From positions 1 to 44,333 of the forward strand of contig NZ_ABXA01000032.1 in NCBI RefSeq assembly GCF_000173355.1: a stretch of 44,333 bases of DNA, read 5' to 3'. The stretch's first letter is position 1. Every line of letters begins with the position of its first letter. Under the pieces are notes generated by a model. The model did no database searches, was not told the DNA's origin, and saw only the letters and a list, made by a program, of their open reading frames with translations. This document shows positions 4,803-32,872 of this stretch, piece by piece. This stretch comes from Anaerococcus hydrogenalis DSM 7454. GTDB taxonomy: Bacteria > Bacillota > Clostridia > Tissierellales > Peptoniphilaceae. Position numbers and translations under genes: made by a program.

Positions 4803-7505
4803 ATGGACTATTTAGGTCAAAAAAATGAAATTGTAAAAAAACTTGACTCTGATAGCTCAAGGGGTTTATCAAAAGATCTTGCAGCTAAACGTCTTGAAGA
4901 AAACGGCCCAAATAAAATTGAATCCAAGAAGAAAAAATCTCTTGGCAAAAAAATCGCCGAACAAATTATTGACCCTATGGTAATTTTGTTGATAGTTGCA
5001 TCAATCGTATCAGCCTTTACTGGAGATACTGTTGAGTGTTTTATAATTATTGCCATTGTTATTATTAATGCAATCATGTCAATTATTCAAGAAGGAAGAG
5101 CTGAAGATTCTGTTGAGGCCTTACAAAAAATGTCATCACCCGAAGCTAGTGTAATTCGTGATGGCAAAAAAATAAAAGTTAAGGCAGAGGACTTGGTTGT
5201 TGGAGATATTGTTGTAATTGAAACTGGAGATATTGTTCCAGCTGATATGCGTTTATTGGAATCATCAAATTTACAAATCGATGAGTCTTCTCTTACAGGA
5301 GAATCTGTCGCAGCAGAAAAAAATTCTGAAGTTATTTATGACAGCGAGGTAGGAATTGGTGATAGGGAAAATTTTGCTTTCTCATCAACAATAGTAACTT
5401 ATGGTCACGGAAAAGGAATTGTTACTCAAACTGGATCTGATTCAGAAATGGGAAAAATTGCATCAAGCCTTCACAAAGTTGAAGATAAGGACACACCTTT
5501 ACAAAGACAATTAAATAAATTATCAAAACTTTTGGCAATACTTGTAGTTGTCGTTTGTATAATTGTATTTGTTGTTGGATATTTTAGAACTGGAGATTCC
5601 CTATTAGAAAACTTAATGGTTGCAGTTTCTCTTGCAGTTGCAGCAATTCCTGAAGGACTTACTGCAGTTGTAACAATTGTTTTATCAATCGGAATGAACA
5701 GGATGGCAGAAAGAAAGGCCATTGTAAAATCTCTAGTTTCTGTAGAAACACTAGGAGCAACAACAGCAATTTGTTCAGATAAAACTGGAACTTTGACTCA
5801 AAACGAGATGACCATTACAAAAATTTGGACAAATGAAAAAGAATATGAAGTTGAAGGAAGCGGATATGAACCAAAAGGTCACATAAAGCTTGACGATGAA
5901 AAAATAGAAGATGAAGAAAATATAAAACTTCTAATGAAAATTTCAACTTTGTGTAATGACGCTGACCTAACTCGTGAGGGCGACCAATATAAAATTATTG
6001 GAGATCCAACAGAAGGGGCCATGCTTACATTTTCTGAAAAATGGGGAATTGTTCAAGAAGATATGGAAGATAAACATCCAAGACTTGAAGAAATTCCTTT
6101 TGATTCTGACAGAAAAATGATGACAACCTTCCACAACATTGAAGAAAATTATAAGTCAATGACAAAGGGAGCTCCAGATATAATAATTTCAAATTCTTCA
6201 AAAATTTTATTAAATGGAGAAATTGTAGATTTCACTGAAGATTTAAAGAAAAAGGCAATGGATGAAAATAAAAATCTTGCCAAACAAGCTCTTCGTGTAA
6301 TGGCTTACGCCTTTAGAGAATTTGATTCAATAAAAAATGAAGAATTGACAAGCGAAAATATAGAAAGAGAAATGGTATTTGTAGGTCTTACTGGAATGAT
6401 AGATCCACCAAGACCAGAGGCTAAAAAAGCAGTAGCAGAATGTCACTCATCAGGAATTGATGTTTTAATGATTACTGGAGATTATTTAGAAACAGCCTTC
6501 GCCATAGCAAGAGATTTGGGAATTGCAGATTCCAAAGACCAAGCTATCGAGGGAAAAGAATTAAATAATATGAGTGATGAAGAAATTAGAGAAATTGCCA
6601 AAGAAAAAAGAGTTTTTGCAAGAGTATCTCCTCAAAATAAGGTTCAACTTGTAAACGCCCTCCAAGAAAACGGAGAAATAGTTGCCATGACAGGAGACGG
6701 AGTAAACGATGCTCCAGCAATTAAAAACGCTGATATTGGAATTTCTATGGGAATTACAGGAACTGACGTTGCCAAAGATACAGCAAATATGATTTTGGTT
6801 GACGATAACTTTGCAACAATTGTAAATGCAGTTGAAGAAGGAAGAATAATTTTCTCAAATATCAGAAAATTCGTTTCATTCCTACTTTCATGTAACATTG
6901 CAGAAGTTTTGATTGTATTTTTGTCAATTTTATTTGGCCTACCTTCCCCACTTACACCTATCCAACTACTCTGGTTAAACCTAGTAACAGATGCTTTCCC
7001 AGCCCTTGCCCTTGGAGTTGAACCAGGAGAAAAAGATATAATGGAAAGAAAACCAAGAGATCCAAAAGAATCAATAATTTCTGGAGATTTGAAAAATTCA
7101 CTAATTGTTCAATCACTAGCAATTACACTTTCAGTTTTAGCATCTTATTTGATAGGACTTAAATGGATTTTCCCAGGAAATATAGAAGGAGCCCACACAA
7201 TGGTTTTTGCAACCTTAATTACAAGTGAGCTTTTAAGAGCATTTTCTGTAAGAAGTACAAAATACACCCTAAAAGAATTAGGAATTGGATCAAACAAACA
7301 ATTAATAAAAGCAAATCTCTTATCATTTGCCCTACTTTTACTAGTAATGTATGTAGGACCATTAAGATATTTATTTGAATTAGAATTTATCACCTGGCAA
7401 TGGATAATAATTCTAGCCCTAGCCTTTATCCCATTAATTCTAGGAGAAGTTCACAAAATTAGTTCTAGAAAAAATAAAATATTTTTTAAAAAGCAAGAGT
7501 TTTAA
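4803..7505 (+). CDS. P2A-type cation ATPase, Ca2+ or Mn2+ exporter
   Basis: This 900-residue P-type ATPase pumps divalent cations out of the cytosol. Motifs in order: actuator TGES at 165-168, transmembrane PEGL at 283-286, phosphorylation site DKTGTLT with Asp326, the nucleotide-binding domain (KGAPD), and hinge GDGVND at 631-636. Ten membrane segments are expected, with the C-terminal cation ATPase domain complete. The overall type is PMR1/SERCA-like. The reading frame stays open back to 4719, inside the riboswitch, but the start at 4803 follows AAGGAGGTAGAA and matches the family N-terminus. Control by a yybP-ykoY riboswitch argues for Mn2+ as a physiological substrate, as for the similar pneumococcal exporter; Ca2+ remains possible. 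A strong terminator overlaps the stop. Confidence 0.92.
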   Translation: MDYLGQKNEIVKKLDSDSSRGLSKDLAAKRLEENGPNKIESKKKKSLGKKIAEQIIDPMVILLIVASIVSAFTGDTVECFIIIAIVIINAIMSIIQEGRAEDSVEALQKMSSPEASVIRDGKKIKVKAEDLVVGDIVVIETGDIVPADMRLLESSNLQIDESSLTGESVAAEKNSEVIYDSEVGIGDRENFAFSSTIVTYGHGKGIVTQTGSDSEMGKIASSLHKVEDKDTPLQRQLNKLSKLLAILVVVVCIIVFVVGYFRTGDSLLENLMVAVSLAVAAIPEGLTAVVTIVLSIGMNRMAERKAIVKSLVSVETLGATTAICSDKTGTLTQNEMTITKIWTNEKEYEVEGSGYEPKGHIKLDDEKIEDEENIKLLMKISTLCNDADLTREGDQYKIIGDPTEGAMLTFSEKWGIVQEDMEDKHPRLEEIPFDSDRKMMTTFHNIEENYKSMTKGAPDIIISNSSKILLNGEIVDFTEDLKKKAMDENKNLAKQALRVMAYAFREFDSIKNEELTSENIEREMVFVGLTGMIDPPRPEAKKAVAECHSSGIDVLMITGDYLETAFAIARDLGIADSKDQAIEGKELNNMSDEEIREIAKEKRVFARVSPQNKVQLVNALQENGEIVAMTGDGVNDAPAIKNADIGISMGITGTDVAKDTANMILVDDNFATIVNAVEEGRIIFSNIRKFVSFLLSCNIAEVLIVFLSILFGLPSPLTPIQLLWLNLVTDAFPALALGVEPGEKDIMERKPRDPKESIISGDLKNSLIVQSLAITLSVLASYLIGLKWIFPGNIEGAHTMVFATLITSELLRAFSVRSTKYTLKELGIGSNKQLIKANLLSFALLLLVMYVGPLRYLFELEFITWQWIIILALAFIPLILGEVHKISSRKNKIFFKKQEF

Positions 7506-7520
7506 TTCTTGCTTTTTTTT
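7491..7520 (+). terminator. Terminator of the cation ATPase gene
   Basis: The hairpin AAGCAAGA-GTTTTAAT-TCTTGCTT followed by T-run overlaps the ATPase stop codon. Its 3' arm also supplies the TTGCTT -35 of the first small RNA. Confidence 0.85.
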
Positions 7521-7537
7521 TGCTTAATTAGTATAAT
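7509..7537 (+). promoter_or_regulatory. Promoter of antitoxin-like RNA 1
   Basis: TTGCTT (7509-7514), 17-bp spacer, TATAAT (7532-7537). The -35 is built from the ATPase terminator. Confidence 0.7.
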
Positions 7538-7542
7538 GTAAG

Positions 7543-7608
7543 TGACAAAAAGTTATGACAAGATAATGATAATCACAAAAAAGCAGGAGGGCCAACTCCT
7601 GCTTTTTT
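7543..7608 (+). ncRNA. Antisense-type small RNA 1 (putative antitoxin)
   Basis: This predicted transcript of about 66 nt runs from the promoter at 7509-7537 to the hairpin GCAGGAG-GGCCAA-CTCCTGC with T6. Bases 7550-7576 (AGTTATGACA and ATGATAATCAC) repeat the plus-strand sequence over the translation start region of peptide 1 (7694-7721). The RNA could therefore pair with that mRNA's ribosome binding site. The hairpin is palindromic and ends both this RNA and the opposing mRNA, the geometry of par RNA II/RNA I. Confidence 0.65.
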
Positions 7609-7616
7609 ATTTTGGG

Positions 7617-7721
7617 CTAATTATCGCTAAAATATCTATCTAGCCACTTGCAGGTAATATTACAAATTACACCTGCCAAAATAGATATTATTAAAGTTAT
7701 GACATAATCTATGATAATCAC
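7617..7721 (-). CDS. Small hydrophobic peptide 1 (putative type I toxin)
   Basis: This short frame of about 30-34 residues has a hydrophobic helix (VITLIISILAGVICNITC) followed by a charged tail (KWLDRYFSDN). That is the build of Fst/Ldr-type membrane toxins. The stop is at 7617. The mRNA has an extended -10 (TGATATAAT, -10 at 7763-7768), a 5' hairpin and a strong site AGGGGGGTGAT. The start is unclear: the only canonical codon is the GTG at 7721, which lies inside the ribosome site. The well-spaced codons are ATC or ATA, where peptide 2 has TTG. This copy may initiate at a non-standard codon or be a weakened copy. Homology to Fst is by architecture only. Confidence 0.55.
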   Translation of the reverse strand: MIIIDYVITLIISILAGVICNITCKWLDRYFSDN

Positions 7722-7731
7722 CCCCCTAACT

Positions 7732-7770
7732 GTTACCAGTTTAGGTTAACGATAACAAAAATATTATATC
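7732..7770 (-). promoter_or_regulatory. Promoter and 5' hairpin of peptide 1 mRNA
   Basis: The extended -10 TGATATAAT has its hexamer at 7763-7768, so the start is near 7756. The first bases form GTTATC (7751-7756) pairing with GGTAAC (7732-7737) through one U-G pair, directly before the ribosome site. Confidence 0.6.
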
Positions 7771-7821
7771 ACAATTTAAATTTCACAGTTTACGAGCTGA
7801 ATTTATTTTGAAAATATTCTA

Positions 7822-7849
7822 TTGCTTTTTCCTTGTATTTTAGTATAAT
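7822..7849 (+). promoter_or_regulatory. Promoter of antitoxin-like RNA 2
   Basis: TTGCTT (7822-7827), 16-bp spacer, TATAAT (7844-7849). Confidence 0.7.
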
Positions 7850-7855
7850 GAAATT

Positions 7856-7919
7856 ACTAAGAGATATGAAAATATACAACCAATCAAAAAAAGCAGGAGC
7901 GGCAACTCCTGCTTTTTTT
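7856..7919 (+). ncRNA. Antisense-type small RNA 2 (putative antitoxin)
   Basis: This RNA of about 64 nt ends at GCAGGAG-CGGCAA-CTCCTGC with T7. Its body (ACTAAGAGATATGAA and CAACCAATCA, 7857-7885) matches the plus-strand sequence over the start region of peptide 2 (7994-8019: ACTAGAGATATGAA, AACCAATCA). It does not match units 1 or 3, so its pairing would be specific. Confidence 0.65.
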
Positions 7920-7921
7920 GC

Positions 7922-8011
7922 CTAATTATCGTCAATATATCTATCTAAAAATTTACAAATATAGTGGCAAATTATACCTGCTAAGATAGAAAGTACTAGA
8001 GATATGAACAA
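7922..8011 (-). CDS. Small hydrophobic peptide 2 (putative type I toxin)
   Basis: This 29-residue peptide starts at a TTG placed 7 bases after AGGGGG. It has a hydrophobic segment FISLVLSILAGIICHYIC and a charged tail KFLDRYIDDN. It is clearly homologous to peptide 1 (shared SILAG, C..K.LDRY and a D-N ending). The predicted mRNA starts near 8054 with an extended -10 at 8061-8066 and a 5' hairpin (8030-8054), and ends at the shared bidirectional hairpin 7893-7912. Membrane toxicity is inferred from family architecture and the antisense partner. Confidence 0.65.
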   Translation of the reverse strand: MFISLVLSILAGIICHYICKFLDRYIDDN

Positions 8012-8029
8012 ACCAATCACCCCCTAACT

Positions 8030-8068
8030 GTTACCAGTTTAGGTTGACGATAACAAAAATATTATATC
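8030..8068 (-). promoter_or_regulatory. Promoter and 5' hairpin of peptide 2 mRNA
   Basis: The extended -10 TGATATAAT has its hexamer at 8061-8066. The 5' hairpin GTTATC..GGTAAC (8049-8054 with 8030-8035) is the same design as in unit 1. Confidence 0.6.
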
Positions 8069-8106
8069 ATAATTTTTATTTCTCAGTTTTAGCATGAAAA
8101 TTTTCA

Positions 8107-8134
8107 TTGATTTTTTATTTTAAATAAGTATATT
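8107..8134 (+). promoter_or_regulatory. Promoter of orphan small RNA
   Basis: TTGATT (8107-8112), 16-bp spacer, TATATT (8129-8134). Confidence 0.5.
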
Positions 8135-8140
8135 GTTTTT

Positions 8141-8200
8141 GAGTAAAAGAATATAGATTCATGGAATCAAAAAAGCAGGATGACAAATCTTGCTTTTTTT
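8141..8200 (+). ncRNA. Orphan antitoxin-like small RNA
   Basis: The layout is the same as the other small RNAs: a promoter, about 30 nt of unique sequence (GAATATAGATTCATGGAATC) and a diverged terminator, GCAGGA..TCTTGC with T7. The next unit's promoter begins inside this terminator, so there is no room for an opposing peptide gene. It is probably what remains of a unit that lost its toxin, or an RNA acting in trans. Confidence 0.5.
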
Positions 8201-8218
8201 CTTATGTCTTAGTATAAT
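8190..8218 (+). promoter_or_regulatory. Promoter of antitoxin-like RNA 3
   Basis: TTGCTT (8190-8195), 17-bp spacer, TATAAT (8213-8218). The -35 lies in the 3' arm of the orphan RNA's terminator. Confidence 0.7.
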
Positions 8219-8224
8219 GAAAAT

Positions 8225-8288
8225 GACTAAAGGAACATATAGTTCATTGTAAGACTAAAAAAGCAGGAGGGCCAACTCCTGCTTTTTT
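8225..8288 (+). ncRNA. Antisense-type small RNA 3 (putative antitoxin)
   Basis: This RNA of about 64 nt ends at GCAGGAG-GGCCAA-CTCCTGC with T6. Bases 8229-8252 (AAAGGAACATATA, TTCATTGTAAG) match the plus-strand sequence over the start codon and ribosome site of peptide 3 (8372-8399: AAAGGAACATATA, TTCATTGCAAG). It is specific to this unit. Confidence 0.65.
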
Positions 8289-8294
8289 ACTTGG

Positions 8295-8393
8295 CTAGTT
8301 ATCGCAGTTGTCATTGGCATCTAACCATTTACAAATAAAATGACCAATTATATTTGTCAAAATGCCAATTATAAAGGAACATATAATTTTCAT
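8295..8393 (-). CDS. Small hydrophobic peptide 3 (putative type I toxin)
   Basis: This 32-residue peptide has a standard ATG and a GGAGGTG ribosome site. It has a hydrophobic core (IICSFIIGILTNIIGHFIC) and the tail KWLDANDNCDN. It shares the C-K-W/F-L-D motif and D-N ending with peptides 1 and 2 but is the most diverged. The mRNA starts near 8434 (extended -10 at 8441-8446). Its 5' hairpin GTTATC..GATAAC is fully paired, where units 1 and 2 use a G-U pair. Of the three, this copy has the clearest start signals. Confidence 0.7.
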   Translation of the reverse strand: MKIICSFIIGILTNIIGHFICKWLDANDNCDN

Positions 8394-8411
8394 TGCAAGC
8401 ACCTCCATTCT

Positions 8412-8448
8412 GTTATCAGATTGGATGCGATAACAATGTAATTATATC
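8412..8448 (-). promoter_or_regulatory. Promoter and 5' hairpin of peptide 3 mRNA
   Basis: The extended -10 TGATATAAT has its hexamer at 8441-8446. The hairpin pairs 8429-8434 with 8412-8417. Confidence 0.6.
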
Positions 8449-8508
8449 ATAATAAAATTGAAAATTTAGAGGTAGATTTATGAGAAAAAAGAAAAACAAA
8501 AGTATTTT

Positions 8509-8769
8509 ATGGAAAAACTTCACCAAATTTACAATGATAAAAATTTAAATTTAACTGAAACTTGTAGGAAAAAAATTTTAGACCAATATAAAGAATTATT
8601 AAATAATAAGACAAATATAAATTATGCCTCATATAAGCTCTATCCATATTTGAGAGATGCCCTTTATGACAATAAGGACTCCGAACTTTTAGGTGATTTT
8701 ATGAAAATTATTTTAAAATACAGGTGGAAGGCATATTTTGCAATGATTTTACCTGTAAGCTTTAAGTAG
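8509..8769 (+). CDS. Hypothetical small protein, start uncertain
   Basis: This 86-residue protein is hydrophilic, lysine/tyrosine rich, with a hydrophobic end (AYFAMILPVSF). I do not recognise it. The ATG at 8509 has no convincing ribosome site, while an ATG at 8480 with AGAGGT upstream opens a different frame that ends after 22 codons. Adding one A in the A6 run near 8485-8490 would join the two into MRKKEKQKYFMEKLHQIYN.., so this may be another homopolymer-broken gene starting at 8480. It lies between the small-RNA array and element C. Confidence 0.4.
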   Translation: MEKLHQIYNDKNLNLTETCRKKILDQYKELLNNKTNINYASYKLYPYLRDALYDNKDSELLGDFMKIILKYRWKAYFAMILPVSFK

Positions 8770-8794
8770 TTAATTTAAAATAATATATAAGTCA

Positions 8795-8822
8795 ATAAAA
8801 AAAGTAGGAAGATATATCCTAC
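8795..8822. terminator. Terminator hairpin beside element C
   Basis: GTAGGA-AGATATA-TCCTAC (8804-8822) is followed in the minus direction by T7 (A-run 8797-8803). It probably terminates the transporter pair on the minus strand. Only the half ATCCTAC is repeated at 9028-9034 on the far side of element C. Confidence 0.6.
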
Positions 8823-9027
8823 CAGTCTGTTGACAAACTAAAAATTCTTCCATTTCGAGCGAACGTAGTGAATCGAGAAATCTCATGAGATCTCTCCGTG
8901 CTTTCGCACTTAATTTTAGGGATAAATGTGCAAAATCAATGCACATTTATCTAGTCGAGATGGTACGTAGCTTAATTTTTATTTTAAAATAAATTATTAT
9001 ATATATTCATACTTTGTCTACGCTCTG
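8823..9027. mobile_element. Interspersed element C (MITE-like), inverted orientation
   Basis: This 205-bp copy is in the opposite orientation to D-F. It begins CAGTCTGTTGACAAACTAAAA and ends TTCATACTTTGTCTACGCTCTG. It contains the GAGAAATCTC hairpin, GTGC..GCAC, and the variable-stem hairpin GATAAATGTGC..GCACATTTATC with loop AAAATCAAT. It carries no coding sequence. The flanking duplication is partial: a full hairpin on the left, a half on the right. Confidence 0.75.
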
Positions 9028-9039
9028 ATCCTACTTTTT

Positions 9040-9600
9040 TTACAATTTAAACACAATTCCAAAAACTGCCCCCATCCCTATTATTAATAAGGGATGGATT
9101 TTTTTGTATTTTCTTAATAAAAATAAAAATCCTATAAACAAAACAAGCTGAATTATTTGGAATAAATCTAGGAAATTTCCTGTTTTTTGGTATAATTTCA
9201 CATTAAATAAGGAAATCACCATTACATTTAACATAGCACCCAAGATAAGGCCTGCCGTTGATGGCCTTATATATTCAAAGGCATTTTTTACCCTAAGAGA
9301 TTTTTTAAATTTATCCATAGATTTTGCTATTATTAAAACTATTATTATTGCAGGACTTATTAAAGAAAAAGTTGCAAGAATTGCCCCAACAATTCCATAG
9401 GCCTTATATCCTGCAAAACTTGCTGCATTTATTCCAATTGCCCCTGGAGTTGATTCTGAAACTGCAATCATATCTAATAATTCTTCACTTGTAAACCAAT
9501 CATAATTTTCTGCCATTTTTTGTAGGAAGGGAAAAGTTGCCATTCCTCCTCCTATTGCAAAAAGTCCAGTTTTGAAAAATTCCCACATCAAGCTAAGCAT
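9040..9600 (-). CDS. Chromate-transporter family protein, C-terminal-type half
   Basis: This 186-residue membrane protein is one half of a split (short-chain) CHR transporter pair. It has the GGGMATFPFLQKM signature near the N-terminus and the conserved STPGAIGINAASFAGYK stretch, then four to five hydrophobic segments. I chose the ATG at 9600, after GGAGGAAAAT, over an in-frame ATG at 9633. This start overlaps the stop of the upstream half by 8 bases, so translation is probably coupled. The two halves presumably form a heterodimer. The family name implies chromate efflux, but the true substrate of many anaerobe members is unknown. Confidence 0.85.
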   Translation of the reverse strand: MLSLMWEFFKTGLFAIGGGMATFPFLQKMAENYDWFTSEELLDMIAVSESTPGAIGINAASFAGYKAYGIVGAILATFSLISPAIIIVLIIAKSMDKFKKSLRVKNAFEYIRPSTAGLILGAMLNVMVISLFNVKLYQKTGNFLDLFQIIQLVLFIGFLFLLRKYKKIHPLLIIGMGAVFGIVFKL

Positions 9601-10126
9601 ATTTTCCTCCAAAAAGAATTCCAAAAATTCCACAAGCTATAACGATAATTATGGGTGAAATTGAAAATATTCCAATTGCTATAAAAGTTAATAAAAATAT
9701 TAAAATTTTTATTTTTGTATTAGCTGTTTTTTTTACCATATTTATTACTGTATTTAAAACTAAGGCTGAAACTGCAATCCTAATTCCGGCAAAGGCGTGT
9801 TGGATGATTAGTAAATGGGAAAATTCTTTTAAAAAATTAGCAATAAGGGTGATGATTATTATTGATGGGGTGATAAAGCCCAAAGATGCAATTATTCCTC
9901 CCAAATTGCCTTTTCTTTTTCTCCCACAAAATGTTGATGTATTTACAGCAATTATTCCTGGTGTTGTTTGGCCTATTGCATAATAATCTAGCATTTCTTC
10001 TTCTGTAATCCACTTTCTTTTATCAACCAATTCCCTTTGTAAAAGAGGAAGCATGGCATAGCCTCCTCCAAAGGTAAAGGCCCCTATTTTAAAAAAAGTT
10101 ATGTAAAGATCTAATAATATTTTCAT
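9593..10126 (-). CDS. Chromate-transporter family protein, N-terminal-type half
   Basis: This 177-residue partner of the previous gene has the matching signature FGGGYAMLPLLQREL at about 19-33 and QTTPGIIAVNTSTFCGRK, followed by hydrophobic helices. It starts at 10126 with AAAGGAGAATTAAA. Both halves show the internal similarity expected from gene duplication. Predicted to be an inner-membrane anion transporter working as a pair. It lies divergent from the GNAT gene. Confidence 0.85.
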   Translation of the reverse strand: MKILLDLYITFFKIGAFTFGGGYAMLPLLQRELVDKRKWITEEEMLDYYAIGQTTPGIIAVNTSTFCGRKRKGNLGGIIASLGFITPSIIIITLIANFLKEFSHLLIIQHAFAGIRIAVSALVLNTVINMVKKTANTKIKILIFLLTFIAIGIFSISPIIIVIACGIFGILFGGKYA

Positions 10127-11475: not shown

Positions 11476-11730
11476 CAAAGTGTAGACAAAGTATGAATGT
11501 AGATAATGATTTATTTAAAAATAAAAATTAAGCTATATACCATCTCGACTATATGATTGTACCTTGAGTTGGTACAATCATCCCTAAAACCAAGTGCGAA
11601 AGCACGAAGAATTTTGCGAAGCAAACGTGTTTTAGTGTGAGTGAAACGAACGCACGGAGAGATTTCACGAGATTTCTCCGCTCACTGCGTTCAGTCGAAA
11701 TGGATATTTTTTTAGTTTGTCAACAGTCTG
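11476..11730. mobile_element. Interspersed element D (MITE-like), terminator-flanked
   Basis: This 255-bp copy begins CAAAGTGTAGACAAAGTATGAA and ends TTTAGTTTGTCAACAGTCTG. Internally it has the CATCTCGAC arm, variable-stem hairpin GATTGTACC-TTGAGTT-GGTACAATC, a GTGCGAAAGCAC hairpin, GGAGAGATTTC..GAGATTTCTCC and the closing TCGAAATGG arm. The flanks are 20-bp copies of the terminator hairpin (11456-11475 and 11731-11750) differing at one base. Confidence 0.8.
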
Positions 11731-27883: not shown

Positions 27884-28139
27884 CAGAGCGTAAACAAAGT
27901 CAGTTTAATAATTAATCAATGATTTAAAAATAAAATTACGCTAAAAAACCATCTCTACTAGATAAATATGCCTTGATTTGGCATATTTATCCCTAAAACT
28001 AAGTGTGAAAGCACGAAAAAGTTTGCAAGGCAAACGTGTTTTAGTATGAGTGAAGCGAACGCATGGAGAGATCTAATGAGATTTCTCCGCTCGTTGCACT
28101 CGGTCGAAATGAGAAAATTTTTAGTTTGAAAACAGTCTG
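27884..28139. mobile_element. Interspersed element E (MITE-like), terminator-flanked
   Basis: This 256-bp copy begins CAGAGCGTAAACAAAGTCAG and ends TTTAGTTTGAAAACAGTCTG. It contains the variable-stem hairpin GATAAATATGCC-TTGATTT-GGCATATTTATC, GTGTGAAAGCAC, GGAGAGATCTA..GAGATTTCTCC and the outer TCGAAATG arm. Its 18-bp flanking copies of the terminator hairpin (27866-27883, 28140-28157) differ by one base. Confidence 0.8.
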
Positions 28140-32620: not shown

Positions 32621-32872
32621 CAGAGCGTAGACAAAGTATGAAATTAGATAATATTTTATTTTTAAATAAAAATAAAGCTAAGTACCATCTCGACTAGATG
32701 ATTGTGCCTTGATTTGGCACAATCATCCCTAAAACCAAGTGCGATAGCACGGAAAAATTTGCGAAGCAAATGAGTTTTAGTGAGTGAAACGAACGCATGG
32801 AGAGATCTCAAGAGATTTCTCCACTCGTGCACTCGGTCGAAATGAGAAATTTTTTAGTTCGTCAACATTCTG
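32621..32872. mobile_element. Interspersed element F (MITE-like), perfect terminator duplication
   Basis: This 252-bp copy begins CAGAGCGTAGACAAAGTATG and ends TTAGTTCGTCAACATTCTG. It has the variable-stem hairpin GATGATTGTGCC..GGCACAATCATC (loop TTGATTT), GTGCGATAGCAC, GGAGAGATCTC..GAGATTTCTCC and outer CATCTCGAC..GTCGAAATG arms. The flanking 22-bp copies of the terminator hairpin (32599-32620, 32873-32894) are identical, which suggests a recent insertion. Confidence 0.85.

Follow-up and report, generated by a model that had tools for sequence, protein, structure and literature searches.

Three par-type type I toxin-antitoxin modules and an orphan antitoxin predicted in tandem in Anaerococcus hydrogenalis

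The 44,333 nucleotides (nt) of contig NZ_ABXA01000032.1 (C21) of Anaerococcus hydrogenalis DSM 7454, hereafter the window, carry at positions 7543-8448 three repeated convergent units and one orphan small-RNA unit, which are very probably a tandem array of three type I toxin-antitoxin modules of the par type with an additional, orphan antitoxin. The source genome comprises 1.89 Mb in 52 contigs, and Anaerococcus is placed by taxonomy lookup in the Peptoniphilaceae, Tissierellia. The array is flanked on one side by the gene of a P-type cation ATPase, the open reading frame (ORF) of which ends at 7505, and on the other by chromate transporter genes, at 9040-10126; this position is chromosome-like DNA. 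On the plus strand of each unit, a TTGCTT..TATAAT promoter precedes a predicted RNA of about 65 nt. The minus strand contains an extended -10 element and, within a predicted toxin messenger RNA (mRNA) of about 175 nt, a leader of about 40 nt, a Shine-Dalgarno sequence and a frame of 29-34 codons. The two RNAs end in a common hairpin. A preliminary description of this DNA had already proposed three convergent units with both RNAs ending in one hairpin, and this arrangement is indeed present.

In unit 1, the predicted antitoxin RNA extends over 7543-7608 on the plus strand (-10 TATAAT at 7532-7537) and the predicted toxin mRNA over 7575-7756 on the minus strand (-10 at 7763-7768). The toxin frame, 7617-7721, has 34 codons if read from GTG 7719-7721 and 31 residues if read from the probable start, ATA 7710-7712; it is intact in three orthologues. 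Unit 2 consists of a predicted antitoxin RNA at 7856-7918 (plus strand, -10 at 7844-7849) and a predicted toxin mRNA at 7885-8054 (minus strand, -10 at 8061-8066), which contains a toxin of 29 residues read from TTG (7922-8011). The corresponding elements of unit 3 are at 8225-8288 (plus strand, -10 at 8213-8218) and 8256-8434 (minus strand, -10 at 8441-8446), and its toxin has 32 residues read from ATG (8295-8393). The bidirectional terminators, 7577-7608, 7887-7918 and 8257-8288, are near-perfect palindromes, as had been reported earlier. The frames for peptides of 29-34 residues are also present as first described, whereas their starts had to be revised. TTG 8011 is the most likely start of unit 2 and ATG 8393 that of unit 3, because GTG 8018-8020 and the upstream ATG 8406-8408, respectively, overlap the Shine-Dalgarno sequence; the start of unit 1 is probably ATA.

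The toxin promoters possess the extended -10 element that had been assigned to them, TGATATAAT. The plus-strand promoters had been called strong. Their -10 hexamer is a perfect TATAAT in all three units, but the -35 element, TTGCTT, is weak, with 3 of 6 matches, and the spacers are 16-17 nt long. A terminator scan of 7400-8900 found 5 sites where 0.5 were expected. These are the hairpins of units 1 and 2 (on the minus strand only), that of the orphan, that of the ATPase gene and a site at 8803-8823; the hairpin of unit 3 is not listed.

Of 61 genomes searched with a profile built on the peptides of the window (A1), 34 gave matches at E<=0.1. The 66 rows taken from this search and the three units of the window give a set of 69 units, 61 of which contain the hairpin of the convergent layout. 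In 59 of these 61, an opposing -10 element, scored against the consensus with one mismatch allowed, is situated 44-62 nt from the loop. Within these 59 Anaerococcus units the leader is 35-45 nt long in 51, and the distance between the Shine-Dalgarno sequence and the start codon is 7 or 8 nt in 56. The start codon is ATG in 44 units, TTG in 6, GTG in 3 and ATA in 4, and two units have broken frames. The ATA at the start position of unit 1 is found also in the orthologues of the relatives G007, G030 and G008.

Two stretches of the start region of each toxin recur in the plus-strand RNA of the same unit, a feature of all three units that is absent from the preliminary description. In unit 1 the repeat AAAGTTATGACA has its antitoxin copy at 7549-7560 and its second copy within the toxin frame at 7693-7704, and the repeat TGATAATCAC is located at 7567-7576 in the antitoxin and at 7712-7721 across the start region. 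The repeats of unit 2, AGAGATATGA and ACCAATCA, occupy 7860-7869 and 7879-7886 in the antitoxin, with second copies at 7998-8007 and 8012-8019. Those of unit 3, TAAAGGAACATATA and TTCATTG(T/C)AAG, are at 8228-8241 and 8243-8253, with second copies at 8372-8385 and 8389-8399, the latter having one mismatch. As a result of this geometry, two segments of each small RNA are antisense to the cognate mRNA, between about -10 and +22 of the start codon. The calculated energies of the cognate duplexes are -30.6, -25.3 and -33.8 kcal/mol for units 1, 2 and 3, respectively, compared to -8.4 to -14.5 kcal/mol for the six non-cognate pairs, and their z values against base-shuffled RNA bodies are -7.1, -5.9 and -7.8. 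The gap between cognate and non-cognate energies, together with the comparison with shuffled RNAs, shows that the pairing is not due to chance.

The same specificity is seen in a matrix of seven mRNAs, consisting of the three of the window, those of three other units of the same genome and that of toxin TC of G007. The cognate duplexes range from -25.3 to -40.4 kcal/mol, the strongest non-cognate duplex, between two units of contig C41, has -22.6 kcal/mol, and each cognate duplex exceeds all the non-cognates of its row by at least 6 kcal/mol. Each antitoxin would thus serve its own toxin, and the three modules would be independent. Pairing between the RNA body and the cognate mRNA is supported in 58 of the 59 Anaerococcus units, with z values of -4.7 to -9.4 relative to 100 base shuffles; only G011:C2:348183, a unit with an altered frame, fails (z -1.3). 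Almost every row places the pairing at the start codon. No other mRNA is a better partner than the own one in 42 of the 59 units; in 16 units 1-3 other mRNAs pair better, and in one unit 23 do, in a set that contains near-identical orthologues.

The toxin mRNA appears to be closed upon itself. RNAalifold, unprompted, pairs bases 1-8 of the mRNA with the region of the stop codon in an alignment of 48 mRNAs out of 51 that were eligible; the three left out comprise a divergent unit, a frameshifted unit and an mRNA whose 5' end had been misread. This 5'-3' helix has 97.4% of its cells paired, and 5 of its 8 pairs are changed on both sides. Three hairpin pairs were tested together with it and are 83.3% paired. 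None of 500 shuffles matches the complete structure in percentage paired, doubly changed cells or covariation score, and 16 reach its number of doubly changed pairs, although related rows inflate such tests of covariation. When the partner strand is slid by 1-3 columns, pairing drops to 25-72%. The covariation can be followed in individual units: five carry GTTACTAT at the 5' end, four of which (not L081) have ATAGTAAC at the stop, whereas units with GTTATC at the 5' end mostly have GATAAC or GATAAT there. The conserved Asp-Asn at the C terminus of the toxins may therefore be partly a constraint of the RNA. The 5' hairpin that had been proposed for the toxin mRNA was also recovered; in 47 of 51 leaders it takes up at least 2 of the 5 Shine-Dalgarno bases, and in 28 at least 3.

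The peptides of the window each consist of one hydrophobic helix, with a mean hydropathy of 2.0-2.4 over the best 17 residues, and a charged C-terminal tail. The K-W/F-L-D tail ascribed to them is present, but unit 2 has F rather than W before LD. KWLD is found in 44 of the 59 units and KFLD or KRLD in 10; the conserved W is present in 47 of the 59 peptides scored, broken frames included. The helix motif P/D/S/TXXXG occurs in 24 of the 59; it reads SILAG in units 1 and 2, and in unit 3 there is only SFIIG, further upstream. In pairs of frames of equal length and 70-97% identity, the proportion of nonsynonymous differences (pN) is 0.157 and that of synonymous differences (pS) 0.325, giving a pN/pS of 0.48, and pN is smaller than pS in 60 of the 66 pairs, which are not independent of each other. 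The intact toxin frames thus appear to be under purifying selection. An earlier argument for coding, based on the codons of the KWLD motif, was dropped in favour of pN/pS, because the units had been chosen by KWLD and an excess of synonymous-only change would be partly circular.

These observations suggest how a module could work. The mRNA would encode a membrane peptide of one helix whose tail is charged (K-W/F-L-D..DN). Pairing of the first eight bases of this mRNA with the stop-codon region would keep it closed, and the Shine-Dalgarno sequence would be partly hidden in the 5' hairpin. The RNA of about 65 nt, coming from the opposite side, would first make contact with the mRNA through the terminator loops, which are complementary, and then pair with it in the two segments around the start codon, so that ribosome binding is blocked. 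Should the small RNA fall behind, the peptide would be made and would damage the membrane. In this scheme we infer transcription, membrane insertion, toxicity, the relative stability of the two RNAs, the order of pairing and any benefit to the host.

A fourth antitoxin, absent from the preliminary description, is predicted at 8129-8199 on the plus strand. This type C RNA has a -10-like TATATT at 8129-8134, a body beginning at about 8141 and a decayed hairpin at 8169-8199, and its toxin is absent. Its body is identical to that of antitoxin AC, which in G007 is adjacent to an intact toxin, TC. The calculated duplex of the orphan RNA with the TC mRNA of G007 has an energy of -28.9 kcal/mol; none with the mRNAs of the window is stronger than -11.8 kcal/mol. 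The general promoter scan lists the promoter of the orphan (8107-8134), but the TATATT element and the decayed hairpin make its expression uncertain.

The orthologous site was compared in six relatives. The window contains pairs 1, 2 and 3 and AC. G007 has pairs 1 and 2 and the complete pair AC-TC; G030 has pairs 1 and 2 and AC; G008 has pair 1, AC and a remnant of toxin 3; G009 has pair 2, AC, antitoxin 3 and a remnant of toxin 3; G001 has the pair AC-TC; and G003 has an antitoxin of type 2 and a remnant of toxin 3. The seven versions of the locus, read from probe matches and sequence, contain 11 pairs, 6 lone antitoxins and not a single intact lone toxin. In the relatives, therefore, decay begins with the toxin. 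The same has happened at a paralogue in the genome of A. hydrogenalis itself (G000:C41:45674-45727), where the toxin frame is broken and the antitoxin still matches the mRNA with -40.4 kcal/mol. The preliminary description had named the loss of frames in close relatives, with the hairpins retained, as evidence that would speak against it. This is found in part: frames are lost in some relatives, but it is the antitoxin that stays, and intact frames elsewhere show purifying selection. The type I toxin-antitoxin assignment with par/Fst geometry, which that description had made, is accordingly supported by the two-segment complementarity, the covarying 5'-3' helix, the 5' hairpin on the Shine-Dalgarno sequence and the loss of toxins with retention of antitoxins.

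The family is widespread in the genus and occurs beyond it. A. hydrogenalis has six units, three on C21, two on C41 and one on C24, as well as two further weak matches, and the same family is present in named Anaerococcus records. At E<=0.001, a profile of 30 members (A2) matches 22 of 31 genomes of the genus and, among the 249 genomes of the order, 7 others, strongly only in G100 and G142; at the same threshold, a profile of 37 members (A4) matches 10 of 299 genomes of the phylum, that of A. hydrogenalis included. For comparison, the Fst model matches 4 of these 299 at E<=0.01 (2 at E<=0.001), one of them above the cut-off. A scan of a genome collection for the motif [SG][HY][YF]ICKWL resulted in 218 confirmed relatives, 80 of which were kept. 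They are mostly from Lachnospiraceae and other Clostridia, with further ones from Veillonella, Gemella and others. There were 71 loci from outside Anaerococcus; 2 end too early, no terminator was found in 4, and 65 were scored. A convergent antisense RNA is present in 53 of the 65 at z < -3 (50 at z < -4).

Modules of this kind are carried by mobile elements as well. A tblastn search of plasmids with one peptide gave 389 records at E<=1 (330 from Enterococcus), mostly weak and including weak matches on many E. faecium plasmids; a search of phages with another peptide gave 9 records. Among the examples retrieved, the module is next to ParA in Carnobacterium, to replication proteins in E. faecalis and on a Mogibacterium plasmid of 4.5 kb, and to an integrase in the satellite phage Javan542. 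In the antisense test, three mobile-element loci have z values of -5.2 (L268), -6.8 (L270) and -7.1 (L271). The value for L269 is 0.3, another hairpin having been scored, and no terminator was found in L272 and L273; the repeats are visible by eye in all three. At none of the 25 plasmid matches listed, out of the 389 records, is there an annotated gene, the gene table itself being incomplete, and no gene is listed in the stretch of the E. faecium module.

The closest known system is par of the Enterococcus faecalis plasmid pAD1 (Fst, RNA I and RNA II), for which the features compared here are those given in a review (PMC7472228). Common to both are the convergent promoters with a bidirectional terminator, two direct repeats that place antisense segments over the start region, the 5' stem-loop on the Shine-Dalgarno sequence and the sequestration of the 5' end in a helix. 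As in Fst and Ldr, the peptide has about 30 residues, one helix, a conserved W and a charged tail. The differences from pAD1 par are an mRNA of about 175 rather than about 230 nt, a small RNA of about 65 rather than about 40 nt, an (I/V)CKWLD toxin lineage that the Fst models do not call, the presence of three units and an orphan, and a U-turn that is not general. The earlier statement that the peptides do not look like Fst was right at the level of profiles. Judged by sequence, the (I/V)CKWLD toxins are a distinct lineage, separate from Fst in sequence and belonging to par in layout. Fst is present in commensal Clostridia, according to the same review. In G518, from the same phylum, a unit of the KWLD type is adjacent to one of the Fst type (L200, 1005-1110 and 1484-1570, respectively). 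The Fst peptide of this pair (APLIVG..YWL) is above the cut-off of the model, so that different toxin lineages are found here with the same RNA layout.

The Rfam family RF02442 (SpF66_sRNA) of Streptococcus, filed as a non-coding small RNA (sRNA), resembles the toxin mRNAs. At 2 of 20 loci it exceeds its gathering score of 42 on toxin mRNAs, in Pseudobutyrivibrio (L136 1466-1670, 49.7 bits) and Veillonella (L156 1458-1669, 44.2 bits). In the 299 genomes of the phylum the family has 16 matches at E<=0.01, and 14 of these coincide with places of KWLD toxins; none of the 16 reaches the cut-off of 42, and the window scores 27 bits. Read by eye, the printed, partial consensus of the family gives ..ADVIAGIILYFVCK.., and its translation is V-L-T-I-I-A-D-V-I-A-G-I-I-L-Y-F-V-C-K. 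This suggests that SpF66 is the toxin mRNA of a KWLD-type family, not a plain sRNA. A DXXXG clade of Fst in S. pneumoniae appears in the review cited above (PMC7472228), and we infer that the SpF66 frame would correspond to it. The type I toxins of Clostridioides difficile (NF047374), also short hydrophobic peptides, differ in that their model has 51 positions. It has no match to the window peptides, and it finds 6 of the 299 genomes at E<=0.01 and none above its cut-off.

Searches with the peptides against families of type I toxins, as the preliminary description had advised, gave weak matches among 30 relatives (one to the Fst model NF033608, E 0.0023, and five to NF047374, best E 0.011) but none to the window peptides. 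Against Pfam the window peptides have only weak matches (a DUF, E 0.027; LrgB, E 0.14), and against NCBIfam they have none. The families matched by the 30 relatives, all weakly, include DUF2158 (8 members, best E 0.0069), ATPase_gene1 (7 members, 0.0038) and two models of phage holins, one with 5 members (E 0.052) and the other with 1 (0.072). One peptide submitted to PADLOC gave no match, and a search of solved structures found two irrelevant ones. In PHROGs, 19 of the 37 members of alignment A4 match phrog_738, a family with no assigned function (best E 0.00029), which may thus be the KWLD toxin family; a holin family is matched by 2 members (0.034). No title or abstract found in the literature describes the locus or the toxin branch; older surveys may list some members.

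Several observations weigh against the interpretation of the array as par-type modules. NF033608 matches neither the window peptides nor, at E<=0.01, anything in the genome of A. hydrogenalis; PF13955 is above its cut-off in none of the 31 genomes of the genus; and hhalign against four true Fst peptides gives a probability of 21% with an E value of 0.001. A general promoter scan, which gave 16 sites where 10.2 were expected, includes none of the six promoters of the intact units. Unit 1 has no ATG, GTG or TTG at the conserved spacing of 7-8 nt from the Shine-Dalgarno sequence, where ATA is found. The 5' hairpin is modestly more stable than shuffled sequences (mean z -2.0), and one of the five measures of structure, the number of pair types, is not in excess, 364 of 500 shuffles being as high. 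The U-turn (YUNR) of pAD1 is present in only 9 of 59 mRNA terminator loops, although the review (PMC7472228) states that it is not found in every member of the par family. As for the history of the locus, all that G001 retains of another unit is a decayed toxin leader, at about 1566-1600 of L248; its toxin and antitoxin are both missing, which means that a whole unit was lost. Some of the losses are not independent of each other, since the six lone antitoxins are partly co-ancestral (those of the window and G009). Finally, 12 of the 65 loci from other bacteria fail the convergent antisense test.

In nine of these twelve (L118, L122, L138, L148, L150, L159, L162, L171 and L174), which belong to Lachnospiraceae and their kin, the best complement lies some 200 nt upstream of the stop codon, on the opposite strand. 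The idea that they lack an antitoxin was rejected once a scan of both strands had located it there. In the eight that were inspected, several of which are near-identical, the antitoxin is divergent and has its own hairpin, and the raw duplex energies are -36.7 to -45.9 kcal/mol. The terminator loops, CUGGCA in the mRNA and UGCCAG in the RNA, are complementary in 8 of 8, although the stems differ, which speaks for a loop-loop contact. The remaining three, L137, L154 and L158, neither pass the convergent test nor belong to the loci with an upstream complement.

Among other explanations, the one that survives best concerns purpose rather than mechanism and is compatible with the par-type interpretation. 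The modules might be leftover addiction modules of mobile elements that confer no present benefit and persist because loss of an antitoxin before its toxin is harmful. The orphan antitoxin, the broken frame with an intact antitoxin on C41, the lack of a normal start codon in unit 1, the toxin remnants in G003, G008 and G009 and the relatives on plasmids all fit this history, whereas purifying selection and the covarying RNA structure indicate that many modules are maintained; we regard it as possible without favouring it. It is quite improbable that the peptides are non-toxic, regulated small membrane proteins, the RNA tuning a useful peptide that acts, for example, on the adjacent cation ATPase. 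The array does adjoin that gene, and in Enterococcus the gene most induced by the Fst of pAD1 (not by chromosomal Fst) is a homologue of a metal-transporting ATPase, according to a published account (PMC8147318); in the relatives, however, the same ATPase is still there although the site beside it carries other toxins or nothing but antitoxins, and paralogues are found at other chromosomal places and on plasmids. That the units are tandem intergenic hairpin repeats resembling repetitive extragenic palindromic (REP) elements, with accidental short frames, as repeated palindromes in AT-rich intergenic DNA and a dispersed intergenic repeat next door might suggest, was rejected as scarcely credible on the grounds of selection and covariation, the uniform leader length and Shine-Dalgarno spacing, the pN/pS ratio, the unit-specific antisense segments and the occurrence in many other bacteria.

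Two features border the array on the chromate transporter side. An ORF of 86 residues (8509-8769, plus strand) adjoins it and is present in 5 of 6 relatives, G030 being the one that lacks it. It has no match in Pfam or NCBIfam. Relatives for which the start was determined have ten additional codons at the beginning of this ORF, which are out of frame here. The dispersed repeat, at 8795-9036, recurs in the window at 11476-11730, 27884-28139 and 32621-32867 and has 49 matches in the genome, fragments included. The copy at 8795-9036 splits a hairpin and is missing at this site in six relatives.

With these alternatives weighed, the par-type interpretation leads to a broader proposal, which we put forward tentatively and with some doubt. 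The KWLD modules may represent a large, unlabelled second branch of par-type systems on plasmids, satellite phages and chromosomes of the Bacillota. The RNA layout of Fst would then be modular, in that the toxin lineage can be exchanged and the antitoxin can be convergent or divergent as long as the start-region segments and a complementary loop are kept. Chromosomal orphans such as the one at 8129-8199 might provide anti-addiction immunity against elements that carry a matching toxin. The array adds a toxin branch that annotation has missed, and the orthologous site provides a natural series of toxin losses in which the antitoxin was kept. Six paralogous RNA pairs and an orphan within one genome constitute material for understanding how antisense specificity evolves.

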